44,838 nucleotides of DNA from a bacterium (lineage in GTDB: Bacteria; Auribacterota; UBA3054): positions 1 to 44,838 of the forward strand of contig JAGCDY010000074.1 in NCBI GenBank assembly GCA_017650925.1. Direction: 5' to 3'. A program made the translations under genes and the position numbers. The notes under the pieces were generated by a model, which was not told where the DNA came from, ran no database searches, and saw only the letters and a list, made by a program, of their open reading frames with translations. This document shows, piece by piece, positions 1,136 through 37,598 of the stretch (within the stretch, counting starts at the first letter, position 1; each line of letters starts with the position of its first letter).

Positions 1136-2281
1136 TTGAAAGCCATTGACAAGATACTGCCCTGGGTGTTTTTCTGCCTCGTTCTCGCGCTCTGCAGTTT
1201 CGGAGCGCTGATGGTGTATTCGTCCAGCGTTTACGTTGCCGAAAGGATCTATTCCGGCAACCAGTATTACTACTTCAAAAGAGAAGTGATGTGGCTTATC
1301 ATGGGATTCGGGGCCATGGCGCTGATGTACAAGATCCCTCTGGATCTTTTGGAGCGCCTGGCCCCCATAATCTACCTAACTTCCCTGCTGTTTTTGATCA
1401 TGGTGTTCTCGCCCTTGGGCGTGACTGTGAACGGCGCCAGGCGCTGGCTGAACTTCGGTTTCCTGAGGTTCCAGCCTTCCGAGGCGCTGAAGTACTCCAT
1501 GATCCTCGTGCTGGCCTGGTGGTATGAGCGCGTGAAAAGGGACGCCGGCTCTTTTGTCAAGGGCGCCCTCATCCCGGCTCTCATCATGGGGCTCGGCCTC
1601 GCCCTGGCCCTGGCCGGTAGAGACCTCGGCACGCCTCTTCTGATCGCCGTTGTCGGAGGAGCGGTCTGTTTCGCGGCCGGCATGCGTATCCAGTACATCG
1701 CCGCGGGCGCCGTCTGCGTGGCTGGCCTCGGCTACTATTACATCACGCACGAACAGTACCGCATAAAAAGGATACTGGCTTTCCTCGATCCGATGGACGA
1801 TCCTCTGGGCACCGGATACCAGAACCTCCAGGCCCTGATGGCCATCTGTTCCGGAAAGATCTCCGGGCTCGGCATCGGCAATTCCCTTATGAAGATGGAA
1901 TATCTGCCGGAAGCCCACACCGACTTCATCTACGCCGTCATAGGCGAGGAACTCGGCTTCTGCGGAACCGTGGCCGTGATCGCGGCCTTTTTCCTCCTGC
2001 TTCTCGTTATGTGGCGCCTTGTTTCCAAAATAGACGATACCTTCTGCCGCCTCACCGCTTTCGGCATAACGCTGGTGATAGGCGGACAGGCCATCGCCAA
2101 CATGGGCGTCGTCACCGCCATGTTCCCCAACAAGGGCATGGGTCTACCATTCATCAGCTACGGCGGCTCTTCGCTTCTTTTCCTTCTGGGGGCCTGCGGC
2201 CTCTTCCTGAACATGGTGAAGAACAAACCCAAAGCGCAAGTCGCCAGGCGCAGCGTCGTTTCCCGCACATCAGCCAAATGA
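1136..2281 (+). CDS. ftsW: FtsW, SEDS-family septal peptidoglycan glycosyltransferase
   Basis: A 381-residue polytopic membrane protein of the FtsW/RodA/SpoVE (SEDS) family, which polymerises lipid II at the septum together with a class B PBP. Visible hallmarks are the NGARRWLNFG block at about residue 99 followed by FQPSE, a DFIYAVIGEELGF block at about 263, and the C-terminal PFISYGGSSL block. About ten hydrophobic segments are evident. The start is TTG at 1136 with AAGG a few bases upstream; the next in-frame ATG would remove the first membrane segment. The stop overlaps the murG start as ATGA. FtsW is favoured over RodA because of the dcw context. Confidence 0.95.
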   Translation: MKAIDKILPWVFFCLVLALCSFGALMVYSSSVYVAERIYSGNQYYYFKREVMWLIMGFGAMALMYKIPLDLLERLAPIIYLTSLLFLIMVFSPLGVTVNGARRWLNFGFLRFQPSEALKYSMILVLAWWYERVKRDAGSFVKGALIPALIMGLGLALALAGRDLGTPLLIAVVGGAVCFAAGMRIQYIAAGAVCVAGLGYYYITHEQYRIKRILAFLDPMDDPLGTGYQNLQALMAICSGKISGLGIGNSLMKMEYLPEAHTDFIYAVIGEELGFCGTVAVIAAFFLLLLVMWRLVSKIDDTFCRLTAFGITLVIGGQAIANMGVVTAMFPNKGMGLPFISYGGSSLLFLLGACGLFLNMVKNKPKAQVARRSVVSRTSAK

Positions 2282-3393
2282 AAGAACTGAAAAAGATATT
2301 GGTTAGCGGCGGCGGGACCGGCGGGCACATCATGCCGGCCATAGCGCTCTGCGAGGAAGTGAGGGAGCGTTTTCCCGAGGCCGAGATACATTTCGCCGGC
2401 CGCGGAGACTCCATGGAGGAACGCCTGGCCAAAAAGCACGGCCTTACGTTCCACCGAGTCCCCTCCTCCCCCAAAGGGCGCGGCTTAAGGATAATCAGAA
2501 ATTTCTTCGTGAACATCGCGGGCTTTTTCAAAAGCCTCGCGCTGATCATGAAATTGAAACCCCAAGCGGTGGCGGCCTTCGGCGGCTACACCAGCGCCCC
2601 GCTTCTGACCGCCGCCAAGCTTCTCGGCAAAAACGCCGTCATCCACGAATCGAACGCCATTCCCGGCCGCGTCACAAGGCTTCTGGCAAAGTTTGGCGTC
2701 AGGGTCGCCTGCGGGCTGGATTCCGATCATCCCGTAATGCTGAAGCTAAAAAAAGGGATCAAAAAGGAAACAAGTTTCGCGATAACCGGAAATCCTCTTA
2801 GGAAAGCTTTCTCCGAACCGGCCAACGATCTTTCAAAAGAACTTCCCGGATATGACGAAAGCAAGCCCCTGCTTTTGGTCTTCGGCGGCTCCCAGGGCGC
2901 GCACAACATAAACATGCTCCTGGCCCGCTCTCTCTCGAAACTAAAAGACTCCTGCCCCTCTTTGCAGGTAGCCCATCTCTGCGGGGAAAACGACATCGGG
3001 ACCCTGAAGCCGGCTTATGAAAACGTCAAGCTGACCTACTGGCTCTTCCCCTTCTTCGACGATATCGCTTCCCTTATGAAAAAGTCCGACCTTTGCGTGG
3101 CCAGGTCCGGCGCCCTTTCCGTCACCGAGATCTGCGCCTCAAAGCTTCCGGCCGTGCTGATCCCTCTGCCGTTCGCGGCCGACAATCACCAGCTGGCGAA
3201 CGCGAGAGTCCTGGAAAAGGCCGGAGCGGCCATTATAAGGGAGGAAAAGGACCTGACGGCCTCCAACCTCTCCGAGACCATATTTACGCTTTTAAATGAC
3301 GAAAACAGGCGTTCGTCCATGGCGGAAGCCGGCGAGAAAGTTTTCATAAAGGACGCTCCCTTTGAACTCTTGAAATTCATCATGGCGGTATGA
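2278..3393 (+). CDS. murG: MurG, UDP-GlcNAc:lipid I N-acetylglucosaminyltransferase
   Basis: A 371-residue GT28 enzyme that transfers GlcNAc to lipid I to give lipid II on the inner face of the cytoplasmic membrane. The N-terminal glycine-rich GGGTGGH loop is at residues 11-17. A second glycine loop, FGGSQGA, starts at about 202. The C-terminal donor-site motif ARSGALSVTE and the DNHQLANA block are present. The ATG at 2278 overlaps the ftsW stop (ATGA). The frame is open further upstream to 2011, but that part lies inside ftsW and carries no MurG sequence. The stop overlaps the murC start in the same way, implying translational coupling. Confidence 0.96.
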   Translation: MKELKKILVSGGGTGGHIMPAIALCEEVRERFPEAEIHFAGRGDSMEERLAKKHGLTFHRVPSSPKGRGLRIIRNFFVNIAGFFKSLALIMKLKPQAVAAFGGYTSAPLLTAAKLLGKNAVIHESNAIPGRVTRLLAKFGVRVACGLDSDHPVMLKLKKGIKKETSFAITGNPLRKAFSEPANDLSKELPGYDESKPLLLVFGGSQGAHNINMLLARSLSKLKDSCPSLQVAHLCGENDIGTLKPAYENVKLTYWLFPFFDDIASLMKKSDLCVARSGALSVTEICASKLPAVLIPLPFAADNHQLANARVLEKAGAAIIREEKDLTASNLSETIFTLLNDENRRSSMAEAGEKVFIKDAPFELLKFIMAV

Positions 3394-4781
3394 GAGACGG
3401 CGACAGATTAAGCTTTTATTTCTGCGGCATCGCAGGCTGCGGCATGGATCCCCTGGCTCGCTTCATGGCTAGGGACGGATACTCCGTCCGCGGCAGCGAT
3501 ATCAAGGAGTCGCCGGAATTGGAGAAACTGCGTTCCGAAGGCATCGAGTGCTTCGCCTGTCAGGACGGGACCAAACTCAAAGAGGGCGATGTCTTCGTCT
3601 ACAGCAGCGCCATCCACGACGACAATCCCGACATGATGAGGGCCAAGGAACTTAACCTCACGATGCTTCACCGCTCCGAACTTCTGTCCCAGGTCGCCGC
3701 GCGCCACAAAGCCGTTACGGTAGCGGGAATGCACGGAAAGACGACGGTCTCTTCTTTGATCGCCTTCCTTATGGCGGAAGGCGGGCTCGATCCCAGCGCC
3801 GTGATAGGCGGCTTCGTTCCGGCCTTCAACGGAAACTTCAGGAAAGGGGCGAGCGATTATCTCGTCCTGGAAGCCGACGAGAGCGACGGCACCTTCGTAA
3901 GATACGCCTCCACTGTCGCGGTGCTCCTCAACATCGACGCCGACCACCTCGACCATTACAAGGACATAAACGAAATAGAGAAAGCCTTCGCGGTCTACGT
4001 GAACAACATCGTTCCCGGAGGAACGCTCGTCTACAATTGCGAGGACGAGATCTGCTGCCGCCTCGCGAAGAACGCCAGGCCGGACATAAGGAAAGTAAAA
4101 TGCGCCATAGGCGCCCTTGCTTTGGACAAAGCCGATTACATCGGCATCGACATCGCGCTCTCCGACCTTTCCTCGACCTTTACGTTCCTCAAAAACGGCG
4201 AAGCGAAAAAATCGTTCCCCGTGATCTGCCCGCTCCCCGGCAGCCACAACGTTTTCAACGCCGTCATCTCCCTGGCCTGCGCCGAAGTTTGCGGCGCCGA
4301 TCCGGAGGAAGCGAGCCATAGCCTTCCCAAATTCAAAAACGCCCGCAGGCGCTTCGAGCTGCTGGGAAAGTGGCACGGCGCCGAGATCATTGACGATTAC
4401 GCCCATCATCCGAAAGAAATTGAAGCGCTGCTAAGATCCGCCTCAAGACTTGAGGGCGAGCTTACGGTCGTTTTCCAGCCGCACCGTTTCTCCAGGACGG
4501 AGAAACTCCTGCCGGAATTTGCCGAAGTTCTCTCGAAAGCTCCCAACCTCATACTGACGGACGTTTACAGCGCGGGCGAAAGCAAGAACAAAATCGGCGG
4601 ACACGAACTCTATGAAGCCGTGCTCGCCGTGGGAGGACAGGCGGAATGGGCCGACGCTCCCAGTGACATTCCGGCCATTCTGCTAAAGAGAAGCGCGAAC
4701 TGGAAATTCCCCCATACCCTACTTTTCACGGGCGCGGGAGCGCTTTCCGGCCTCGCTCACGAAATGCTTAAAAACCAATAG
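3390..4781 (+). CDS. murC: MurC, UDP-N-acetylmuramate--L-alanine ligase
   Basis: A 463-residue Mur ligase that adds L-alanine to UDP-MurNAc. The Rossmann-like N-terminus has the GIAGCGM motif near residues 13-19. The ATP P-loop reads GMHGKTT at 113-119, the central domain has the EADESDGTF block, and the C-terminal domain carries DDYAHHP at about 335-341. The length is normal for a stand-alone MurC, so there is no Ddl fusion as found in Chlamydiae. The start overlaps the murG stop (ATGA). FtsQ begins only 7 bases after the stop, so murB and ddl are not inserted here. Confidence 0.96.
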   Translation: MRDGDRLSFYFCGIAGCGMDPLARFMARDGYSVRGSDIKESPELEKLRSEGIECFACQDGTKLKEGDVFVYSSAIHDDNPDMMRAKELNLTMLHRSELLSQVAARHKAVTVAGMHGKTTVSSLIAFLMAEGGLDPSAVIGGFVPAFNGNFRKGASDYLVLEADESDGTFVRYASTVAVLLNIDADHLDHYKDINEIEKAFAVYVNNIVPGGTLVYNCEDEICCRLAKNARPDIRKVKCAIGALALDKADYIGIDIALSDLSSTFTFLKNGEAKKSFPVICPLPGSHNVFNAVISLACAEVCGADPEEASHSLPKFKNARRRFELLGKWHGAEIIDDYAHHPKEIEALLRSASRLEGELTVVFQPHRFSRTEKLLPEFAEVLSKAPNLILTDVYSAGESKNKIGGHELYEAVLAVGGQAEWADAPSDIPAILLKRSANWKFPHTLLFTGAGALSGLAHEMLKNQ

Positions 4782-4788
4782 AGGGATT

Positions 4789-5592
4789 ATGTATACAACG
4801 AAAAACCAAAGGGTCGCCAGCCGCCCGGAAGTGACAAGAGCAAGGCTGAAAGGCATCGCCGGCAAGATCATCAAGACGCTCGTAATAATAGGAGCCGTCC
4901 TGGGCACGCTGTACGGGATCTGCAAGGCGGGGGAAAAGTTCCTCATGTCTGACGATTTCATGATCAAAAGCGTCGTCGTGAAGGGCAACTATTCCGTGAG
5001 CAAAGAGGCCATCGTGAGGGCCGGCGGTCTTTACGCCAACATGAACATCTACTTTTTGGAGACTGAAAGGATCAAGCAGGGCATCCTCCGCCATCCCGAC
5101 ATCGAGAAAGCCGAGATCGAACGCGAGATACCGACCAACCTCATAATCCGCGTCAAGGAAAGGGAGACGGTGGTGCTTCTGAAAACGCCCAAGGGCAGGA
5201 CTCTTCCCATGGACCGCCACGGGCACATCCTAAGCGACAACAAGCTTGAGAACACCGCCGGCCTCCCGATCGTCATGACCGACAATGAGATCGGCCTGCC
5301 CGGCCACAAATGCCAGGACAAAAAAGTCCTGTCCGCCATAAGCTACCTCATGGTCATACGCCACGCTCCCGAAAGAAATTTCCTGAAGATAAAAACGGTC
5401 GACACGAGGCAGAAAGACGCGCTCGTTTTCAAGACCGCTTCCATCGAAGAGATACTGTTTAGCGAAGAGTATTCCAGCGACGAGGTCGCCAAGATTTTTG
5501 AAGTGGTCAAGAATCTGCGCGAGACCGGCCGCGTAGCAGCTAAAATCGACGCCCGCTACGAAGACGTGGCGGTCGTTTGCAAATACCTATAG
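4789..5592 (+). CDS. ftsQ: FtsQ/DivIB-type division protein with POTRA domain
   Basis: A 267-residue bitopic membrane protein. A basic cytoplasmic N-terminus is followed by one membrane anchor at about residues 28-44 and a POTRA domain at about 59-126, containing VVVKGNYSVSKEAI and the downstream VKERE strand typical of FtsQ. FtsQ links the cytoplasmic FtsA/FtsZ ring to FtsB/FtsL and the septal synthase. The ATG at 4789 has a good GAGGG ribosome site. Family identity rests on the single anchor, POTRA domain and position directly before ftsA; overall sequence conservation in this family is low. Confidence 0.88.
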   Translation: MYTTKNQRVASRPEVTRARLKGIAGKIIKTLVIIGAVLGTLYGICKAGEKFLMSDDFMIKSVVVKGNYSVSKEAIVRAGGLYANMNIYFLETERIKQGILRHPDIEKAEIEREIPTNLIIRVKERETVVLLKTPKGRTLPMDRHGHILSDNKLENTAGLPIVMTDNEIGLPGHKCQDKKVLSAISYLMVIRHAPERNFLKIKTVDTRQKDALVFKTASIEEILFSEEYSSDEVAKIFEVVKNLRETGRVAAKIDARYEDVAVVCKYL

Positions 5593-5597
5593 CGATT

Positions 5598-6830
5598 ATG
5601 GCAAAAGACAAGATCTATTCGGCCATAGACCTCGGGTCCCAGACTATCAGGGCGGCCATAGGCCGTCTTAATGAGGACGGGTCCCTGGAGGTCATAGGCT
5701 ACGGAACCGCCTCTTCCGAAGGCATCATAAAAGGGCGCGTGGAAGACGCGAACGCCGCCCAGGAAGCGATCAAGAAAGCCGTGCTGGCCGCGGAAAACGA
5801 CGTGAAGACCAGACTCCCCTACCAGATGCAGGAAGTCATCACGAGCGTGACGGGATCGATAATCTCGGGCGAGCAGGACGGCACCACCGTATCCAACAAC
5901 ATGAGGGACGGCAAGATCACGGAAAAGCTGCTCTTCGAGATCGACGGCCTTTTTGAGGAACGCTTCACCCACAAGGACCGCAAGCCGATCCACATCTACG
6001 TGACGGAATACAACGTTGACAACGTCAGGGAAACGAGCCAGGCCAGCGTCCTGGAAATGCAGGGCGAGAAGATCGGCGCCAAGGGCTTCGGCATCCTGGG
6101 CGATTCCGCCATACTTGACAAAATTGCCGGAACGCTGAACAACGCCGGGCACACGGTCGAGATCTTCTGCTTCGACGTGGTGGCGGACGGCTATTCCGTT
6201 CTGACCCCCGAACAGAGGCAGATCGGTTCGCTTGTGATCAACGCCGGCGCCGGCAGCACCGATTTCGCGTTCTGGAAAAACGGCATCGTCCAGTTCATCG
6301 GAAGCTTCCCGGTGGGCGGCGACCACGTGACGAACGACCTGGCGCTGGGCCTCAACATGCCCTTCAAGGCGGCCGAGGATCTGAAGTGCCAGTACGACAA
6401 GAACGAAACGGAAGTCAGAGTAGGCGGCAAGCTCTACAAGACCCGCTCGGTCGACACCATCGTGCAGGCCAGGACGGAGGAGACCGTCCGCTACATAGCC
6501 GACAAGATCAAGCAGAACGGCATGCTGAGCCAGATCCAGGGCGGCATTTTCCTGACCGGCAACGCGGCCAAATCGAGCTTCATAACCTATATGCGCAGGG
6601 AGTTCTCATCGCTGGAAGTCCGCAACGCCTATCCGATCATTCCGGCGGAACCTGACAACTCTGATCCTAGTGACACCGGCCGGTTGTATTCCCCCTACTA
6701 CGGAAACAAATTCCAGACCGACGCGGGCTCCTCGACCATTCTCGGCATGCTTGTCTACGCCGCCAAGGAAGACATACATTCCTCTAAAAAAAGCTCCTCC
6801 GGGATCTTCAAATTCTTCAATCTGCTATGA
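5598..6830 (+). CDS. ftsA: FtsA, actin-like Z-ring membrane tether (altered nucleotide motifs)
   Basis: A 410-residue actin-fold protein that anchors FtsZ filaments to the membrane. The phosphate-1 motif DLGSQTIRAAIG begins at residue 11. The phosphate-2 motif reads NAGAGSTD at about 215-222, where FtsA and actin relatives normally have D-x-G-x-G-T-T-D, so the leading Asp is Asn. The adenosine motif is LTGNAA at about 319-324 rather than the usual TGGGA. The C-terminal amphipathic membrane helix is retained (SGIFKFFNLL). The ATG at 5598 is chosen over a TTG inside ftsQ at 5577. The stop overlaps the ftsZ start. Identity is secure; ATP turnover may be changed. Confidence 0.93.
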   Translation: MAKDKIYSAIDLGSQTIRAAIGRLNEDGSLEVIGYGTASSEGIIKGRVEDANAAQEAIKKAVLAAENDVKTRLPYQMQEVITSVTGSIISGEQDGTTVSNNMRDGKITEKLLFEIDGLFEERFTHKDRKPIHIYVTEYNVDNVRETSQASVLEMQGEKIGAKGFGILGDSAILDKIAGTLNNAGHTVEIFCFDVVADGYSVLTPEQRQIGSLVINAGAGSTDFAFWKNGIVQFIGSFPVGGDHVTNDLALGLNMPFKAAEDLKCQYDKNETEVRVGGKLYKTRSVDTIVQARTEETVRYIADKIKQNGMLSQIQGGIFLTGNAAKSSFITYMRREFSSLEVRNAYPIIPAEPDNSDPSDTGRLYSPYYGNKFQTDAGSSTILGMLVYAAKEDIHSSKKSSSGIFKFFNLL

Positions 6831-7951
6831 AAGACAACCAACTTCTGATAAAAGTCATAGGCGTCGGCGGCTGCGGCTGCAACACCGTTTCCAACATTGA
6901 GAAACAGTATTCCGAGATCCTCGGCCCCAACTTCGAATTCTACGGAGTCGACACCGACTTCATAAGCCTGGCGAACCAGGGCGTCTCCAACAAGGTGCAG
7001 ATCGGCACGCTCGGCATCGGGACGGCCAAGGATCCCATGAAGGGAGCGGAAGCCGCCCAGAAGAGCATTCAGCAAATAAAAGAGATGATCCAGGGCGTGG
7101 ACATTGCCATACTGTGCGCCGGATTAAGCGGCGGCACGGGTTCGGGCGCCACGGGCGTCATCGCCCAGGCGGCCGCCGGAAATCCGGGTTGCGTAGTGAT
7201 GGCTTCGGTCACTCTCCCCTTCTACTACGACGACCAGAAAAAGCAGGAGGCAGCGAAAGCCGCCCTCAGGAACATCAAGGAAGTCGTGCCGGTAGTATTG
7301 CCCGTGCAGAACGGCGTCGGCATAGAGGACGAGAACGTCCCCTTCCTGGAAGTTTTGAGAGCCACAGACAGGAACGTCATCTCGCTCCTTGAGATGATCA
7401 AGGTGATAACCGGCTCCACCAGCACAGAGAGCTTGGATTTCAGCGAATTTTTAAGCGTGGCCTCCACGCCCGGCAACGCCATGATCGGCATCGGCGAGGC
7501 GGACGGCGAACAGGCCGTCTCCGTCGCCATAAGCCTGGCCCGCGCTCCCAAAAACATGTCGTACGGCGACTACTCCCTGAAAGACGCCTCCAAGCTCGCG
7601 CTTATGATAATGGGCAACGGCGGGATCTCCTACAAGCAGATAAAGGACGCGAGGACCACGCTGCAAAACGAGATCGGCTACCAGACGGAAGTGTTCAACG
7701 GCCTTTACGTCGACAATTCACTCGAGAAAGTGAAAGTCATAATGTTCGCCACCGGCATGAACGATCCGAAGGAAATCTCCGCGCCGAGCTTTCAGACGGA
7801 AATGACTGTCGCCGGTCCCGGCGACCAGGTGGAAATGGGCTTCCTTTCGGCGGACGAAGGCTACTTCAAGGGAACGGCCCCCGCTTACTTTGAGAACATC
7901 AACTACGACAGGCCGACTTTCCTTAGAAAAAATCTCAGGATCGAGCAGTAA
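6827..7951 (+). CDS. ftsZ: FtsZ, tubulin-like division GTPase (divergent)
   Basis: A 374-residue FtsZ that polymerises into the division ring. The N-terminal nucleotide motif reads GVGGCGCN at about 12-19. The G-box reads SGGTGSG at 101-107 instead of the usual GGGTGTG. The T7 catalytic loop reads SLDFSEF at 202-208 where most FtsZ have N-x-D-F-A-D, so Asn becomes Ser and the second Asp becomes Glu (E207). A linker of about 45 residues leads to a recognisable C-terminal peptide, DRPTFLRKN at 361-369, the expected FtsA-binding site. The start overlaps the ftsA stop (ATGA). This is a real but unusual FtsZ; a plasmid TubZ or bacterial tubulin is excluded by the dcw position and the C-terminal peptide. 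Confidence 0.94.
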   Translation: MKDNQLLIKVIGVGGCGCNTVSNIEKQYSEILGPNFEFYGVDTDFISLANQGVSNKVQIGTLGIGTAKDPMKGAEAAQKSIQQIKEMIQGVDIAILCAGLSGGTGSGATGVIAQAAAGNPGCVVMASVTLPFYYDDQKKQEAAKAALRNIKEVVPVVLPVQNGVGIEDENVPFLEVLRATDRNVISLLEMIKVITGSTSTESLDFSEFLSVASTPGNAMIGIGEADGEQAVSVAISLARAPKNMSYGDYSLKDASKLALMIMGNGGISYKQIKDARTTLQNEIGYQTEVFNGLYVDNSLEKVKVIMFATGMNDPKEISAPSFQTEMTVAGPGDQVEMGFLSADEGYFKGTAPAYFENINYDRPTFLRKNLRIEQ

Positions 7952-18295: not shown

Positions 18296-18319
18296 TTCGA
18301 TGGCTACTTATAGTATAAT
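18290..18319 (+). promoter_or_regulatory. Promoter of the first CotH gene
   Basis: TTGATT (18290-18295), an 18-base spacer and TATAAT (18314-18319) form a convincing housekeeping-type promoter. The predicted transcript starts near 18326 and has a leader of about 29 bases before the ATG at 18355. The -35 box lies inside the preceding dyad, which may matter for control. Confidence 0.6.
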
Positions 18320-18354
18320 TGGACGCTGGTTTTAACAATTTGGGAAAAATCCTA

Positions 18355-21024
18355 ATGAAATCAGTACTCAAAACAATTCTCTTTCTGGGCCTTAGCGCCC
18401 TCTCTGTTCGCTCCGAACTCCCCTCCAATCTCGTCTCAGCCAACTGGATCGAATCCAAAGGCGGCTACATCAACACCGGCATCAATCAGTACGGCTCTTC
18501 CCTTTCCGAACTTGACTGCGTTTTAGAGTTCACCACCCTCAATTATCCCAAGCGGCGCCTTATGGGTTTCAACGGCGCCGGCCCGAAGAACTACGTGGGC
18601 ATCAGCCCCGACAACAAGTTCGACCTCTGGAATGTTTCCCAAACGGAAGCCGAGGCGAACGTCAAATACCATTTGCATCTCACACAGGACCGCGTGGTCG
18701 CCGTGCTCGATATATATAGTTATAACGAAAATCCCGAGAACGAAGTTCTTCTGGAGAAGATGGTCTGCAACGCCAACGGCATCAACAATAGCGAATGCCA
18801 GCTCTTCATCATCGCCTCCAATCCGAACTACCACTGCTACGACGTCAGGCTCTACAACTTCAAGATCCTTCTTGACGGCGAGCTGAAAAGGGATTTCTCC
18901 CCTGTCATGGACATAGAATCCCACAAGGCCGGAATGTATGACAGCGTGAGCGGCGAGACCTTTTACGCCAGCAACGAAGGCAAACTGATCTGTGACGCCA
19001 TGGACTTTTCTTACGGCGAAGGCGAAAGCAAGGTCTGCCCTGACGGCGACACCCTCTACCTCCCCTCCTACGCCGACTACTCCAACCTCGACGCTCTCCG
19101 CTTCCCCGCCGGCACCGTTCTTTCCGGCACCACCGGCGAAAGCCTGACCGTGGGCACGGACGCCCTTGACATGCGCGTGCTTTTCGGCGACGACATGGAA
19201 GCCGGCGAAAGGTATCCTGTGACTGTCAGCTTCCCCTCCGGCGCCGCGACGAGTTTCTTCCTCGCCAAGAGCGCCAACATCCCCGCCCTCTTCGTCAACC
19301 TCGACGCCACAAGCGTTGAGATGATCAACAAGAGCAAAGCCAACCAGGCTTCCGGCGCGGCGCTGAAGATCGCCCCCGACGGCACCGCATCCCCGCTTCT
19401 CGAGGTCAAGAAGTTCGCGGGCCGCGGCAACACGAGCTGGACTTATTCCGGCGACAAAAAACCCTATAAGATCAATCTGGCCGAGAAATACAATTTAATC
19501 GCTTCCAAAAGCCCCAACAAAAAATTCGCCCTGCTCTCCCTTAACCTCCAGGACAGGAAAGACCGCAGCTGTCTCAAGGAATTCGTCGCCCATGAGCTGG
19601 CCGAGTCTATGGACATGAGCTTTGTCCCTGGCATGGAATTCGTCGACCTCTACGTCAACGGTTCCTACCGCGGCATCTATGTCATCAAGGAACGCATAAC
19701 CATCGGGTCCGACAGGATCAACATCCATGAACCGAAATTCCTCTATGAGGACGAAACTTCCACCACGAGAGTGGTGCAGCAAAGCGGCATCAAGGGCGTT
19801 GACGGAGCTTCCGGCGACGAGGGCGACGAGGAGCCATTCAAAGTCTCCAGCTGGAACGTTCCGGCAGCCACCGAGACCATCTTAAGCGAGAACGACGATG
19901 AAGACCCCGCTTTGAAAGCCGGCATCCAGGCTTACCAGTACGCCACCGGCTCACAGCTCCAGGGCGGCAAGGACGGCGGCGTGATCATCGAAATGAACGT
20001 CTGCTATTCCGCCTACTTATATGACGAGCCCAGCTTTTTCATCACCAGGAGAGGCCAGATATTCAACCTGAAGACCTCCGAGTGCGGCACCAAGGGGCAG
20101 GTCCAGAGGATCGCGATCTTCGTGCAGGAAATGGAGGACGCCCTCTTCAGCGAGACCGGCTTCAACGCCAAGGGCAAACACTATTCGAAATACATCGACG
20201 TCGCGAGCATGGCCAAGCATGTGGCTCTGGACGGCTTCATGGCCAACTCCGACTTCTGCATCATCAGCACTTACTTCTACATCGACGCCGATCCCACTAC
20301 CGGCGAATATATCGGAAAGCTTAAAGCTGAGCCGGTCTGGGACTACGATTTCGCCCAGGTCAATTCCAACCATGTCTACGTCAACAGCCAAAGCAGGATG
20401 TGCTACGTTCCCCACTTCTTCGGCAAGGCGGACTTCGTCAAGGCTCTCTATGAGATCCAGAAAGACGAGAACGGCTTCACTAAGAGAATCGCCGAACTGA
20501 ACGGCGGCGAACTGGACGATCTGGCCGCTAAGCTTATGCCCACCTACAAACTGAATTTCCTCAGATGGGGCAGCGACTCCGTATTCGACAGCGAAGTCCT
20601 CAGGAACAGCATGAGGACCAGAGAGGCCAGCTGGAACAGCCTCTGGAAACCGGATACACAGCTCCTGGGCGCCTGGGTGGACGAAGCCCCCGCTCCCCAG
20701 TATTCCTTCTTCTCCTTCAACGCTTCCGAATCCGCTGACATTTCCGTCTTCAATTACGGCACCGCCGGCGAATACCAGTGGTACAAGCTTGATGAGGAAG
20801 ACAACTCCCTGAAAGCCATCGAGGGCGAGACGGAAGCGACCATAGATCCCACCTATTACGGCAAAGGCGAATACGTCTGCGCCATCAGCGGCGTCAACCT
20901 GGAGCCCCAGGCCGGCGGTCAGAACGTGACGCTCTACACCGCTCCCTTTGTTTTCGGCGCTCCGGAGCCCGGAATGATCGGAATGCTCCTTGCCGCGGCG
21001 GCTTTTTTGCTTCGCAGAAAGTGA
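18355..21024 (+). CDS. Exported CotH-kinase-domain surface protein with PEP-CTERM tail (paralogue 1)
   Basis: An 889-residue exported protein. A signal peptide (about 1-20) is followed by a LamG/concanavalin-like domain (about 30-215) and a linking region. A CotH domain (about 320-720) contains GRGNTSWTYSGDKKPYKINL near 355, DLYVNGSYRGIY, and the acidic EPVWDYDFAQVNSN at 659-672. An Ig-like segment with YQWYK follows (about 790-865). The C-terminus is Pro870-Glu-Pro872, a hydrophobic helix and RRK: a PEP-CTERM sorting signal, presumably cut by an exosortase. CotH domains are atypical protein kinases in Bacillus spore coat. No spore role is likely here; surface protein phosphorylation is inferred. 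The ATG at 18355 fits the signal peptide; no strong Shine-Dalgarno. The next gene is a tandem paralogue. Confidence 0.88.
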   Translation: MKSVLKTILFLGLSALSVRSELPSNLVSANWIESKGGYINTGINQYGSSLSELDCVLEFTTLNYPKRRLMGFNGAGPKNYVGISPDNKFDLWNVSQTEAEANVKYHLHLTQDRVVAVLDIYSYNENPENEVLLEKMVCNANGINNSECQLFIIASNPNYHCYDVRLYNFKILLDGELKRDFSPVMDIESHKAGMYDSVSGETFYASNEGKLICDAMDFSYGEGESKVCPDGDTLYLPSYADYSNLDALRFPAGTVLSGTTGESLTVGTDALDMRVLFGDDMEAGERYPVTVSFPSGAATSFFLAKSANIPALFVNLDATSVEMINKSKANQASGAALKIAPDGTASPLLEVKKFAGRGNTSWTYSGDKKPYKINLAEKYNLIASKSPNKKFALLSLNLQDRKDRSCLKEFVAHELAESMDMSFVPGMEFVDLYVNGSYRGIYVIKERITIGSDRINIHEPKFLYEDETSTTRVVQQSGIKGVDGASGDEGDEEPFKVSSWNVPAATETILSENDDEDPALKAGIQAYQYATGSQLQGGKDGGVIIEMNVCYSAYLYDEPSFFITRRGQIFNLKTSECGTKGQVQRIAIFVQEMEDALFSETGFNAKGKHYSKYIDVASMAKHVALDGFMANSDFCIISTYFYIDADPTTGEYIGKLKAEPVWDYDFAQVNSNHVYVNSQSRMCYVPHFFGKADFVKALYEIQKDENGFTKRIAELNGGELDDLAAKLMPTYKLNFLRWGSDSVFDSEVLRNSMRTREASWNSLWKPDTQLLGAWVDEAPAPQYSFFSFNASESADISVFNYGTAGEYQWYKLDEEDNSLKAIEGETEATIDPTYYGKGEYVCAISGVNLEPQAGGQNVTLYTAPFVFGAPEPGMIGMLLAAAAFLLRRK

Positions 21025-21039
21025 TCGCTCTGCAAAAAT

Positions 21040-21069
21040 GCCCCCGGCTCAAACCGGGGGCTTTTTGTT
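21040..21069 (+). terminator. Intrinsic terminator after first CotH gene
   Basis: GCCCCCGG (21040-21047) and CCGGGGGC (21054-21061) form a perfect 8-bp GC stem with a 6-base loop, followed by a T-rich tail. It separates the two CotH genes into different transcripts. Confidence 0.9.
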
Positions 21070-21096
21070 TGACAATTTGCTTTTTCCCCTTAAAAG
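21069..21096 (+). promoter_or_regulatory. Candidate promoter of the second CotH gene
   Basis: TTGACA at 21069-21074 is a perfect -35 box overlapping the tail of the terminator. The best -10 at normal spacing is TAAAAG (21091-21096, 16-base spacer), only a moderate match. A better AT-rich hexamer, TAAAAT at 21100, is too far away. The leader to the ATG at 21137 would be about 35 bases. Confidence 0.4.
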
Positions 21097-21136
21097 AAAT
21101 AAAATTTTAGACAAGAGATATCGCCGTAAAAGCCGC

Positions 21137-23779
21137 ATGGAAACCCAAAAGATCATAATATCCGTCCTTTTCCTCGCCTGCTGCGCCCTTGGCGCCAGAT
21201 GCGAGCTACCCAATGGCCTTGCTCCCGCAAACTGGATCGAGACCAGGGGCGGATACATCCCCACGGGCATAACCCAATCCGGCGCGACGACGGTCGAGCT
21301 TGACTGTCTTCTGGAAGTCACCTCTCTCTACTATTCGAAAAGACGCCTGATGGGTTTTGACGGCGCCGGTCCCAAGAACTATTTCGGCGTGACCACCAAC
21401 AATCATTTCGAGATCTGGAACCCCACCGTCCTTACAGCCGAATTAGGCGTCAAATACCGCCTGCACATGACCCAGAACAAGACCACCACCCTGCTGGAAG
21501 TCTTCTCCGAGGCAGGCGCGCTCCTAGATTCCGTTACCGGCAACGCCAAGGGCATCAACAGCAGCGAATGCCAGATCTTCACCATCAACTCAAGCTCCGC
21601 CTACACCTGCTACGGAATTAGAGTCTACGATTTCAAGATCATAATAGACGGAGACGTCAAAAGGGACCTCGTCCCGGTCTTCGACTATACGGCGGGAAAG
21701 CCAGGCATGTACGACAGCGTCAGCCAAACAACGCTCTACGCCTACGGCAGCGGCAAGCTTGACTGCGACGCCCTTGATTTTCACTACGGTTCCGGTGACA
21801 CCAAGATATTGCTTGAAGAGGGAGCCATGTATTTCCCCTCCCACATCGGCTTCGAAGACCTCGGCGAATTTTCCTTCCCGGAGGGCACCGTTTTGAGAGG
21901 GACCGAAGAGGGAGCCAGCCTGACCGTGGGCGAAGACACTCTGGATATGCGGACCATTTTCGGCGCTGACATGCGTCCCGGGGAAAGGTATCCCCTTAGC
22001 GTGGAATTCACCTTCGGCCTGGTGACGAATTTCTATATCGCAAAAAGCGCAAACATTCCTTCGCTTTTCGTGAACCTTATAGACGCCGATCTGGCTTTCA
22101 TACACAGGAACAAGAAAAACGAAGCCGCCGCCGTCGCCCTGAAGATCGAGCCTGACGGAACTTCCTCCGAGCTTCTCCCTGTCAAAAAGTTCGCCGGCCG
22201 CGGCAACGCCACCTGGACTTATTCCGGCGACAAGAAGCCCTACAAGATCAACCTGGAATCGAAATACGCCCTCATATCCTCCGCCCCCAAAAGCAAAAAA
22301 TTCGCCCTGCTCTCCCTGAACCTTCAAAACAACAAGGACCGCAGCGGGCTCAAGGAATACGCGGCCCACGAGCTGGGAGACGCCATGGGCATGGGCTTCA
22401 ATCCTGACTCTGAATTTGTTGACCTTTACGTCAACGGTTCGTACCGCGGCTTCTACATGATAAAAGAACGCGTGACCATCGATCCCGACAGGATCAACAT
22501 CAACGAGCCGAAATACAGTTTTGAGGACGAGGAGTCCACCACAAGAGTCGTTCAGCGAAACGGCATCAAGGGCGTCAAAGGCGCCGCGGGCGATCCCGAC
22601 GACGGCGAGCCCGTCTCAGCCTCCAGCTGGAACGTCCCCTCCCCCACGGAGACGATCACGAGCGAGAACGACGATGATGATCCCGCGCTCAAGGCCGGGA
22701 TCCAGGCTTACCAATACGCCACAGGTTCCCGCCTGAAAGCCGGGAAGGAAGGCGGCGCGGTCATCGAGATGAACGCCTGCTACGGCCAATACATGCAGGA
22801 TGAGCACGTCTTCTTCATCACCAGGCGCGGCCAGATCTTCACCCTGAAGATCCCCGAAGTCGCAACGAAGGAACAGGTCCGGAGGATCGCAATCTTCGTC
22901 CAGGAATTTGAAGACGCCCTCTTCGGGGAAAAAGGTTTCAACTCGCTTGGCAAACATTATTCCGAATATCTGGACGTAGAGAGCATGGCCAAGCACGTGA
23001 TGGTGGACGGCTTCATGTACAACTCGGATTTCTGCATCCTCTCCACCTTCTTCTACATCGACGCCGATTCCGTAAGCGGTGAATTAAGGGGCAAACTCAT
23101 AGCCGAGCCCATCTGGGATTACGATTTCGCCCAGATCAATTCCAGCCATATCTACGCCTCCAATTCCAATCCCATGAACTATCTGCCGCAATTCTTTTCC
23201 AAGGCTGATTTCATAAAGGCCCTGTACGAATTGCAAACGGATCCTTATGGTTTCCAATCAAGAGTCGCGCGGCTGAATTCCAACGACCTTTCCGCTCTGG
23301 GCGACAAGCTCCAGGCCGCGCATCAATTGAATTATTTCCGCTGGGGCAGCGATTCCCAATCAGACGTGGCGACCATCAAAAGCAGGATGAGCTCGAGAGC
23401 GGGAAACTGGAACAATATTTTCAACCCGAACCAAAAGCTTTTGGGCGCCTGGGTGGAACAGGCCCAAACAAGGTCCCGCGCTATAAGCGGCCCGCTGACC
23501 GTGGAGACCTACGGCACGCCGATATCGTACCAATGGTACAAGCAGGACGCTGAGAGTGGCGAATTGACTGAGCTTGAGGGCGAGACAGGCTCAACTCTTG
23601 ATCAGGAACAGTACGGCAAGGGACAGTACGTCTGCGGCGTCTACGGAAAAAATCTGGAGCCTCAGGCGGGCGGAACGTACGTGACGCTTTACACCGCGCC
23701 TTTCGCCTACGGACTTCCGGAGCCAGGCTTACTCGCTGCGCTTCTTGCCGCCGCGGCCTTTCTACTCCGCAGGAAGTGA
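21137..23779 (+). CDS. Exported CotH-kinase-domain surface protein with PEP-CTERM tail (paralogue 2)
   Basis: An 880-residue paralogue of the gene just upstream, with the same order throughout: signal peptide (1 to about 21, ending near GARCELP), LamG-like domain, CotH domain (GRGNATWTYSGDKKPYKINL near 353, DLYVNGSYRGFY, EPIWDYDFAQINSS starting at 657), Ig-like YQWYK segment, and a PEP-CTERM tail (Pro861-Glu-Pro863, hydrophobic helix, RRK). The last ten residues are identical to those of paralogue 1. The frame is open upstream to 20990, but that part overlaps the first gene and terminator; the ATG at 21137 gives a proper signal peptide. No good Shine-Dalgarno is visible. The putative active-site acidic residues (WDYD) are retained in both copies, so neither looks decayed. 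Confidence 0.88.
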   Translation: METQKIIISVLFLACCALGARCELPNGLAPANWIETRGGYIPTGITQSGATTVELDCLLEVTSLYYSKRRLMGFDGAGPKNYFGVTTNNHFEIWNPTVLTAELGVKYRLHMTQNKTTTLLEVFSEAGALLDSVTGNAKGINSSECQIFTINSSSAYTCYGIRVYDFKIIIDGDVKRDLVPVFDYTAGKPGMYDSVSQTTLYAYGSGKLDCDALDFHYGSGDTKILLEEGAMYFPSHIGFEDLGEFSFPEGTVLRGTEEGASLTVGEDTLDMRTIFGADMRPGERYPLSVEFTFGLVTNFYIAKSANIPSLFVNLIDADLAFIHRNKKNEAAAVALKIEPDGTSSELLPVKKFAGRGNATWTYSGDKKPYKINLESKYALISSAPKSKKFALLSLNLQNNKDRSGLKEYAAHELGDAMGMGFNPDSEFVDLYVNGSYRGFYMIKERVTIDPDRININEPKYSFEDEESTTRVVQRNGIKGVKGAAGDPDDGEPVSASSWNVPSPTETITSENDDDDPALKAGIQAYQYATGSRLKAGKEGGAVIEMNACYGQYMQDEHVFFITRRGQIFTLKIPEVATKEQVRRIAIFVQEFEDALFGEKGFNSLGKHYSEYLDVESMAKHVMVDGFMYNSDFCILSTFFYIDADSVSGELRGKLIAEPIWDYDFAQINSSHIYASNSNPMNYLPQFFSKADFIKALYELQTDPYGFQSRVARLNSNDLSALGDKLQAAHQLNYFRWGSDSQSDVATIKSRMSSRAGNWNNIFNPNQKLLGAWVEQAQTRSRAISGPLTVETYGTPISYQWYKQDAESGELTELEGETGSTLDQEQYGKGQYVCGVYGKNLEPQAGGTYVTLYTAPFAYGLPEPGLLAALLAAAAFLLRRK

Positions 23780-34658: not shown

Positions 34659-34666
34659 TTTAAGCC

Positions 34667-36094
34667 ATGACGACTTTTCTCATCGGTCTGGGAATACTTA
34701 TTTTCGGCGGCGCCCTCTACGGCCGCTTCATGGAAAGATTTTTCGGCGTTGAAGACAGGCCGACTCCCGCGATAGTAAAAAACGACGGCAAGGAATACGT
34801 TCCGATGCCGACCTGGAAATGCGCGCTCGTCCATCTTCTCAACATCGCCGGCACAGGACCGGTGCTGGGGCCCATCCTGGGCATTATTTTCGGCCCAATA
34901 GTCTTCATAACCATTCCCCTAGGCTGCGTATTCGCCGGGGCCGTGCACGACTATATGATCGGCATGATCTCGATCAGGGAGGACGGTGCGCAGATGCAGG
35001 ATCTCGTGAACAAGTACCTCGGGAGGCACATAGCGCTGCTCTTCGACGTCTTCATCTGCCTTATGGCGCTGCTGGTGGTCGTCACTTTCACCTACTCCCC
35101 CGGCGATATCGTGGTCACAAGTTTCCTGAACAAGGAAGCGGATGTTGGCACTTACCAGACATGGGTAGCTTATGCCGTGATCTTCATATATTATCTTTTG
35201 GCCACCTACATGCCGATAGACAAGCTGATCGGCAGAGTCTATCCCGTCATTGGCAGCCTTTTCATCCTTTCGGCCGTTATCATCTTCGCCCTGATCTTCC
35301 TGAAGAAACTGCCGCTGGAAGAACTCAGCTGGGCCAACTGGCGCGGAAAAGAAGCCAACATGATCCCCCTCTTTTTCGTGACCGTGGCCTGCGGCATAGC
35401 CTCGGGCTTCCATTCCACACAGGCGACCTTGATCGCCCGTTCCGTAAAGCATGAAAGATGCGGCCGCAAGGTCTTCTTCAATATGATGCTGGTCGAGGGC
35501 TTCATCGCCATGATCTGGGCGGCCGTCGCCATGGGCGTCGCGGCAAAATTTGAGCTCAGCAACCCCAAAGACGCCAACTTGACGCTGGTGGAGATCATAA
35601 GATTTCTCCTGGGCAGCAAATTTGGCATCATCGTCATGGCCGGATTCATAGTTCTGCCCATAACCACGGGCGGCACGACCATGCGCGTCCTGCGCATCAT
35701 AATGAGCGAGCTGCTGAAAATAAAAAAAGAAAATCTTCTCGGCAAGATCCTGCTGGGCGCATTCATAGTGATCGCTTCGCTCTCCCTGCTCCTTTTCGTG
35801 AAGTTCCAGCCGGACGGCTTCCAAATGATCTGGCGGTATTTCGCCTGGAGCAACCAGATCATCGTGGTCTTTACCCTGGCGGTCGTGACGGCCTATATGG
35901 TTCGGCAAAAGAAACTCATCGTTTTCACGGTCCTGCCGGGCGCTTTTTATCTGTTCGTGGTGTCAAGTTTCATTTTGCACGCCGAATTCGGATTCAATCT
36001 CAGCTGGGACAAATCCTATCTTATCTCCGGCCTGCTCTCGCTGGCTTTCATAGGCTATTTCAGTTGGAAAAAATATTTAACAAGGAAGGCATGA
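34667..36094 (+). CDS. CstA-family transporter (paralogue 1)
   Basis: A 475-residue polytopic protein of the carbon starvation CstA family, which imports peptides or pyruvate. Family blocks visible are NIAGTGPVLGPILG, GCVFAGAVHDYMIGMIS, ACGIASGFHSTQATLIAR, and NMMLVEGFIAMIWAA. It is the short form of about 480-500 residues rather than the 700-residue E. coli type. About a dozen membrane segments are evident. It starts 8 bases after the GT2 gene and is followed after one base by a close paralogue. Nothing in the sequence explains why it sits in a glycan operon. Confidence 0.9.
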   Translation: MTTFLIGLGILIFGGALYGRFMERFFGVEDRPTPAIVKNDGKEYVPMPTWKCALVHLLNIAGTGPVLGPILGIIFGPIVFITIPLGCVFAGAVHDYMIGMISIREDGAQMQDLVNKYLGRHIALLFDVFICLMALLVVVTFTYSPGDIVVTSFLNKEADVGTYQTWVAYAVIFIYYLLATYMPIDKLIGRVYPVIGSLFILSAVIIFALIFLKKLPLEELSWANWRGKEANMIPLFFVTVACGIASGFHSTQATLIARSVKHERCGRKVFFNMMLVEGFIAMIWAAVAMGVAAKFELSNPKDANLTLVEIIRFLLGSKFGIIVMAGFIVLPITTGGTTMRVLRIIMSELLKIKKENLLGKILLGAFIVIASLSLLLFVKFQPDGFQMIWRYFAWSNQIIVVFTLAVVTAYMVRQKKLIVFTVLPGAFYLFVVSSFILHAEFGFNLSWDKSYLISGLLSLAFIGYFSWKKYLTRKA

Positions 36095-36095
36095 C

Positions 36096-37598
36096 ATGTG
36101 GACGTTTCTTACCGGTCTGGTGATCTTGGGCGTAGGCGGCTGTCTTTACGGCAGCTTCGTTGAACGTTTCTTCGGCGTCAGCGATAAACCGACGCCGGCC
36201 GTTACGAAAGCTGACGGCGTGGACTACGTTCCCATGTCAAGCTGGCGCAACGGGCTTATCCACCTTCTTAACATAGCCGGGACCGGCCCCATACTGGGAC
36301 CCATCCAGGGCATTCTCTTCGGGCCGATGGCCTTCATCACCATCCCCCTGGGCTGCATCCTGGCAGGCGCGGTCCAGGACTACATGATCGGCATGATCTC
36401 CACAAGGAATGACGGCGAGCAGATCGAGAGTCTGGTGAAACGCTTCCTCGGCAAACACGTGGCTTTCTACTTCGGCATCTTCGTCCTCCTGGCGGTATTG
36501 CTGTTCGGCGTGACCTGCGTCTACACTCCGGGCGACATCTTCGTAAAAGGCGTGCTCAAGAAGAGCGCTGAAATCAACAGTTGGTATCTTTGGGTGGTTT
36601 ACGGTGTGATCTTCGGCTACTATCTCATCGCCACCCTGCTCCCCATCGACAAGATCATCGGCAGAGTTTACCCCTTCATCGGGGGCTTCTTCATCTTCAC
36701 GGCCATTTTGCTCTTTGTTTACATTTTCGCGGAAAAACTTCCCCTGAAAGAGCTTGACCCCTCCAGCTTGTGGAGTTGGAAACAAGACCCGGTAAATAAA
36801 TTCTTCCCCATCTTCTTCGTGACAGTCGCCTGCGGCATCGCGAGCGGTTTCCACGCCACCCAGGCCACCATCATCTCCCGCACCTTGACGCATGAAAGGG
36901 AAGGCCGCAAAATATTCTACAACATGATGCTCGTGGAAGGTTTTATCGCCATGATCTGGGCGGCCGTCACCATGGGCGTGATCGAGCTCTACGACATAAA
37001 TACCACCGAAAACGCCACGAACATGCTGGCCGAGATCATCGACGACGTTCTCAAGGTCTTCAATATCGACAACTCTTCCCCCCACGATGACCTCGTCTAC
37101 GTTGTCGGCAAACTCTTCTCCAACGGCATCGACATAGTGGTCATCCTAGGCGTCATCGTCCTGCCCATTACCAGCGGCGACACGGCGCTCCGAAGCTGCC
37201 GCCTGATGGCCGGCGAAATGCTTGGCGTCGACCAGAGCAAACCAGAAAACCGCCTAAAATTGGGCGCCGCCATCTTCGCTCTGACCGCCGTTCTCCTTTT
37301 CGTCGCCAAATTAAGCAACAGCGGCTTCCAGCTTCTCTGGCGCTACTTCGCCTGGGCCAACCAGACGATCGTGGTCTTCTCTTTGGCTGTGGCCACCGCC
37401 TGGTGCATCAAGGAGGGCAAGTCCATCTGGGTCACGGTGCTGCCGGGCGCCTTTTACCTGACCGTCACTTCCTCCTTCATACTGAGCGCCCCGATCGGTT
37501 TCAACCTGCACTGGCTGGTAGCTGACATCATCGCCGCGGTCCTCGCTTTGGCCTACATCATCTACTTCGTCAATCTGAAGAAAAAAACTTCCCTTTAA
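36096..37598 (+). CDS. CstA-family transporter (paralogue 2)
   Basis: A 500-residue paralogue of the preceding gene. Shared blocks include NIAGTGPILGPIQG, ACGIASGFHATQATIISR, the membrane segment NMMLVEGFIAMIWAAVTMGV, and SGFQLLWRYFAWANQTIVVF. It differs mainly by an insertion of about 25 residues around 300-330 in a loop (KVFNIDNSSPHDDL). A very good AAGGAAGG ribosome site lies before the ATG, suggesting it is translated more strongly than paralogue 1. The two may differ in substrate or form a pair. The stop overlaps the start of the GT-C gene (TAATG). Confidence 0.9.
   Translation: MWTFLTGLVILGVGGCLYGSFVERFFGVSDKPTPAVTKADGVDYVPMSSWRNGLIHLLNIAGTGPILGPIQGILFGPMAFITIPLGCILAGAVQDYMIGMISTRNDGEQIESLVKRFLGKHVAFYFGIFVLLAVLLFGVTCVYTPGDIFVKGVLKKSAEINSWYLWVVYGVIFGYYLIATLLPIDKIIGRVYPFIGGFFIFTAILLFVYIFAEKLPLKELDPSSLWSWKQDPVNKFFPIFFVTVACGIASGFHATQATIISRTLTHEREGRKIFYNMMLVEGFIAMIWAAVTMGVIELYDINTTENATNMLAEIIDDVLKVFNIDNSSPHDDLVYVVGKLFSNGIDIVVILGVIVLPITSGDTALRSCRLMAGEMLGVDQSKPENRLKLGAAIFALTAVLLFVAKLSNSGFQLLWRYFAWANQTIVVFSLAVATAWCIKEGKSIWVTVLPGAFYLTVTSSFILSAPIGFNLHWLVADIIAAVLALAYIIYFVNLKKKTSL

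Follow-up and report, generated by a model that had tools for sequence, protein, structure and literature searches.

FtsZ and its setting in the window

The window analysed here, a 44,838-nucleotide stretch from a bacterium of the phylum Auribacterota (contig JAGCDY010000074.1, positions 1 to 44,838), carries an ftsZ gene whose product differs from canonical FtsZ at a set of active-site positions, among them a glutamate (E207) in the catalytic T7 loop where Staphylococcus aureus FtsZ (SaFtsZ) has D213. A first-pass annotation, made from the letters alone, had singled out the T7 loop and the G-box of this protein and described both as tubulin-like. To place these residues, we mapped them onto SaFtsZ (sequence taken from a Protein Data Bank, PDB, search; its numbering is marked Sa below) and compared them across the genus, which comprises ruminant-gut assemblies (8 species genomes examined, 6 with ftsZ), the order (15 genomes), the phylum (44 genomes examined, 37 with an FtsZ homologue) and a panel of FtsZ from IMG/VR contigs. 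Families of the phylum are written f1, f2 and so on. The gene and its neighbours are as follows.

6827..7951, + strand: ftsZ, 374 amino acids, the sole FtsZ of the genome (profile matches)
7904..7930, + strand: C-terminal FtsA-binding peptide YDRPTFLRK, from Y360, intact; binding is predicted from sequence
5577..6830, + strand: ftsA, divergent (scoring 173.7 bits, cut-off 175.85), with fast change together with FtsZ
4789..5592, + strand: ftsQ (POTRA_1)
1136..4781, + strand: ftsW, murG and murC of the division and cell wall (dcw) cluster (from translations; homologous genes are present in genus- and order-mates)

The annotation had taken the protein for a division FtsZ on account of its dcw position and the C-terminal peptide, and this assignment holds, with FtsA adjoining. 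The gene closes the dcw cluster directly after ftsA, the position of an FtsZ, with its ATG overlapping the ftsA stop codon, and it yields the single PF00091 match across the 1.98 Mb genome. The profile scores were 156.2 bits (E = 1.4e-45) for NCBIfam ftsZ (TIGR00065), short of the equivalog threshold of 295 bits, 89.9 bits for PF00091 and 25.7 bits for PF12327 (cut-off 27). The sub-threshold TIGR00065 score is a matter of divergence and defines no biological trait, and the other tests put the protein in the family. In a PDB sequence search, 49 of 50 matches were FtsZ, the remaining one being a weak TubZ/RepX match, and on the tree the protein groups with the FtsZ of its own order (Shimodaira–Hasegawa-like approximate likelihood ratio test support of 97). 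The AlphaFold model has a mean predicted local distance difference test score (pLDDT) of 63, with most of the N-terminal domain at 84-92 and T7 below 50; its 50 best PDB fold matches are FtsZ only, headed by SaFtsZ-GDP-BeF3 and SaFtsZ(R143K). An origin from tubulin or BtubA/B, or by horizontal gain, is excluded by the tree and by the PDB sequence and fold searches.

Compared with canonical FtsZ (S. aureus, B. subtilis; TIGR00065), the window FtsZ has the same gene context, fold, GTP-binding core, D46 and D210 equivalents and FtsA peptide, but it is ~30% identical, falls short of the 295-bit cut-off at 156 bits, and carries substitutions at Q48, G72, R143, D213 and, here, N208.

Active-site changes and their fixation in the genus

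Alignment confirms the letters as the annotation had read them, that is, S-L-D-F-S-E-F in T7, GGTGSG in the G-box and the FtsA-binding peptide. R143K, Q48I and the T3 changes G72A and A73K had been overlooked, the first two having experimental precedent. Three residues are missing immediately ahead of the T3 loop. The altered elements are the following.

6866..6883, + strand: T1 loop GGCGCN, residues 14-19; Sa G22 is Cys16 and Sa N24 is Cys18 (alignment)
6950..6964, + strand: T2 loop D42-T-D44-F-I46; Sa N44 is Asp, D46 is kept, and Q48 (K+ ligand) is Ile
7013..7036, + strand: T3 loop GIGTAKDP, residues 63-70; Sa G72 is Ala67 and A73 is Lys68
7121..7150, + strand: T4 G-box GLSGGTGSGA, residues 99-108; Sa G106 is Ser101 and T111 is Ser106
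7211..7243, + strand: T5 region TLPFYYDDQKK, residues 129-139; Sa E139 is Asp135 and R143 is Lys139
7355..7357, + strand: Leu177, replacing the near-invariant aromatic F183 (alignment)
7430..7447, + strand: T7 catalytic loop S202-L-D204-F-S-E207 (then F208); Sa N208 is Ser (Asn in G005 and G006), D210 is kept, and D213 is Glu

Across the genus, the changes are N44D, Q48I, G72A, A73K, G106S, T111S, E139D, R143K, F183L and D213E, and there is no change at D46, D210, N25 or the T1 core glycines (all Sa numbering). N208S belongs to the window's subclade only: two genus-mates, G005 and G006 (63-64% identical), have Asn (ENLDFSEF), so S202 is no genus feature, and as a functional hallmark it was dropped. 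The T7 loop accordingly reads SLDFSE in the window and NLDFSE in those two genomes, rather than NxDFAD, with the D210 equivalent kept in place.

E207 is fixed in the genus (6/6 genomes with ftsZ), encoded by GAA in five genomes and by GAG in one. The exchange of Asp for Glu at the position of alpha-tubulin E254, to which the annotation had drawn attention, is real and lineage-specific (6/6 in the genus, 0/31 among other phylum FtsZ): among the 37 phylum genomes with an FtsZ homologue only the six genus members have it, and the other 31 have Asp (25), His (two, f12 and f16) or have lost the motif (four, f11 and f14). In the IMG/VR panel, D213, N208, R143 and Q48 are invariant wherever readable (52, 52, 54 and 48 sequences, respectively), the D213 and N208 counts being biased because part of the panel was retrieved via the canonical T7 pattern. 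The G-box behaves differently. TGSG is also found in family f5 and in 3/53 panel FtsZ, and it was dropped as a marker coupled to the T7 change, f5 having TGSG with canonical T7 acids. 

We then asked how these changes are distributed. Among 33 nucleotide/catalytic positions chosen from the SaFtsZ literature, 14 are genus-fixed and unlike the order-mates f2/f3 and one varies within the genus, compared with 87 fixed-different and 112 varying at the remaining 268 positions (Fisher p = 1.9e-4, which is indicative only, because several changes had already been seen when the positions were chosen and because the tree is ignored). In four-taxon trees, the stem branch to the genus has a length of 1.43 changes per site in FtsZ, where the order-mates have 0.36 and 0.38, and of 1.39 in FtsA (0.51 and 0.49), as compared with 0.86 for MurC (0.62 and 0.79) and 0.80 for MurG (0.80 and 1.10). 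Between the window and a close genus-mate, FtsZ is 92% identical, the highest value among the dcw proteins compared (others 69-86%), and its ratio of non-synonymous to synonymous substitution rates (dN/dS) is 0.04-0.11 between close species. The long stems, the low dN/dS and the retention of E207 through a synonymous GAA/GAG change indicate a joint burst of change in FtsZ and FtsA, after which both were frozen. An assembly or sequencing artefact was ruled out, since the same letters recur in several assemblies made independently from different ruminants, and dN/dS is low.

Positions 143 and 213 covary in the phylum, with Lys beside Glu in f1 and Lys beside His in f12/f16; with two independent events (p = 0.5) this is suggestive only. 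No statistical link between positions 48 and 208 was found in the phylum.

A proposed remodelled GTPase site and competing explanations

The catalytic residues of FtsZ are treated as universal and serve as anchors for drug targeting. A natural enzyme in which acid, base and K+ ligands are exchanged together would make it possible to ask which features of the FtsZ mechanism are indispensable and whether division depends on fast GTP turnover. Judging from the sequences, we put at roughly 0.5 the probability that the window protein is the sole, working division FtsZ of its genus and that the changes remodelling its active site arose together on the genus stem, along with those in FtsA, and then stayed constant. 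GTP binding and head-to-tail polymerisation are probably kept, because the T1 core glycines, N19, D44, TGxG, D204 and the FtsA peptide are all retained. Hydrolysis is predicted to run several-fold below the rate of ordinary FtsZ and to depend little on K+, and the filaments are predicted to be more stable. A longer acid (E207) and a Lys base (K139) would take the place of D213 and R143, the K+ ligands being replaced by Ile (I46) and Ser (S202), and, with Ala as the G72 counterpart, the new T3 lysine (K68) by the gamma-phosphate could partly make up for the lost charge. From these residues we infer that the K+ site was lost and that E207 pairs with K139 or K68.

Precedents for single elements of this scheme exist. 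In SaFtsZ, D213 and G72 help to hold the attacking water, water bridges D213 to R143, and a K+ ion in T7 is held by Q48 and N208; R143K and Q48A each lower GTPase activity ~6-fold and stabilise filaments, and D46A, R143Q, N208L, D210N and D213N abolish assembly (PMC8936486, Ruiz et al.). E. coli FtsZ D212A has 7% of its activity remaining (PMC8142252), and the mirror swap in tubulin, E254D, makes hydrolysis ~4-fold slower (PMC7018511). The natural R143K and, closely, Q48I of the window FtsZ resemble two of the SaFtsZ mutants, which are, however, single laboratory changes; the rest of their site is canonical and has neither D213E nor G72A nor A73K. A natural low-GTPase FtsZ, as predicted for the window protein, is that of Ca. 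Thiosymbion oneisti (PMC8953583). The altered GTPase or filament dynamics that the annotation had anticipated are a reasonable prediction.

Several points weigh against a remodelled, slower site. Our literature search found no published FtsZ D212E or D213E mutant, and compensating changes could restore a normal GTPase rate. The T7 loop of the AlphaFold model, at its low pLDDT, is unusable for locating E207, and the shortened T3 loop, like the N166 loop, is aligned with less certainty. The fixed-versus-variable comparison takes no account of the tree, and the 143/213 link comes from just two events.

The differences could instead be neutral, conservative swaps (Asp to Glu, Thr to Ser, Arg to Lys) in an ordinary FtsZ with ordinary dynamics. 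Several of the changes are indeed conservative, and since FtsA diverged alongside, both proteins may have drifted; yet the positions are near-invariant elsewhere, here they changed en masse along a single branch before freezing, and Q48A and R143K alone have a ~6-fold effect in SaFtsZ. We consider this explanation unlikely. We consider it quite improbable that the T7 loop and G-box converged on tubulin, with E207 acting like alpha-tubulin Glu254. E207 aligns with the catalytic E254 (PMC13394414) and GGTGSG is the tubulin form, so the window FtsZ resembles alpha-tubulin and BtubA/B in having Glu as the second acid of T7 and in the G-box. Both letters nevertheless lie within the printed signature of the common FtsZ/tubulin superfamily, GGGTG[T/S]G and NxDxx[D/E] (PMC12583498), so neither alone makes the protein a tubulin; the latter pattern is fitted only by the genus-mates with Asn. 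Moreover, f5 combines TGSG with canonical T7 acids, and of the 14 active-site changes fixed in the genus, just T111S and D213E are the tubulin-like ones. The window FtsZ has no significant sequence match to these tubulins, its fold and tree position are those of FtsZ, and no further tubulin-like change was seen; the label of a tubulin-like protein goes too far.

Least probable, in our estimate, is relaxation, that is, an FtsZ heading to loss of GTPase activity and then of the gene, as in f11/f14 and f6 (see below). Some families of the phylum do have an FtsZ that lacks the catalytic motifs and others have none, and N208 was lost in the genus only in the window's subclade, but within the genus no part of the protein varies less than the active site (1/33), dN/dS is low, and D204 and the GTP-binding core are kept.

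A more far-reaching extension of the remodelled-site reading is that the genus FtsZ swapped the Mg2+/K+ two-cation mechanism for the side chains K68, K139 and E207 with slow turnover, as one step in a phylum whose FtsZ GTPase was loosened repeatedly. Such loosening would take in D213E or D213H with R143K, D210E, N208K, the disappearance of the catalytic motifs from FtsZ and, at the end, the loss of both FtsA and FtsZ. We regard this as doubtful; if true, GTP-driven treadmilling would be needed little or not at all for division there.

FtsZ variation elsewhere in the phylum

FtsZ change is concentrated in this phylum, and the relatives form a graded natural series, from canonical FtsZ through FtsZ without catalytic motifs to none. 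In families f11 and f14, the sole FtsZ has no T1 motif (the site reads GDWGIR or the like), no Thr in the G-box (GGGVGSG, GGGIGSG, GGGLASG) and no T7 acid pattern (RGDYAS, GGDQAR, GGDYAL, GGNRVG). These proteins retain an FtsA-binding peptide, DLDIPTFVRKG, and are encoded after a canonical FtsA (373-399 bits, four genomes), with a full dcw cluster around FtsZ in L082. They are possibly a GTPase-dead FtsZ in use. The genes lie at:

L082:8452-9591, + strand: f11/f14 FtsZ
L083:4009-5157, + strand: f11/f14 FtsZ
L085:2731-3870, + strand: f11/f14 FtsZ
L084:1467-2600, - strand: f11/f14 FtsZ

In f6 (two genera, 94-95% complete), three profiles run against whole genomes found neither FtsA nor FtsZ, the weak matches to the FtsA model staying below 50 bits. 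The corresponding loci are:

L109:202-7748 (G016): murC::murB-ddl-ftsQ
L108:5163-9512 (G023): murC::murB-ddl-ftsQ

In both loci murC and murB are fused and no ftsA-ftsZ comes after ftsQ; in G016, the next genes are those for RNase HII and HisS. Judged by gene content, division in f6 is FtsZ-less, in a phylum otherwise with FtsZ.

Further variants were observed. The FtsZ of f5 (L026, L029, L034 and L036) has K-[IL]-D-F-A-D in T7, with Lys at the K+-ligand Asn and A, D, G or I at Q48, and a Ser-containing G-box (TGSG, or AGSG in L034); the lysine may replace the K+ ion. D213H and R143K occur together in L027 (f16) and L030 (f12), and D210E is found in L035 (f7, G017) and L068 (f17, G041), additional cases in which near-invariant catalytic residues of FtsZ have changed in nature. 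A putative viral contig, L080 (IMGVR_UViG_3300036766_002281, 74.6 kb), encodes a very divergent FtsZ (314-amino-acid open frame, T7 NLDFADF), which joins the genus on the tree via long branches, probably as an artefact.

Elsewhere in the window, two successive open frames at 34664-37595 (+ strand) give CstA-like transporter matches, the first to positions 52-234 of one CstA model and the second to positions 226-558 of another, pointing to a split gene or a frame break. At 18319-23776 (+ strand), two adjoining long proteins (open frames of 901 and 933 amino acids) each carry a CotH kinase domain and probably arose by tandem duplication.
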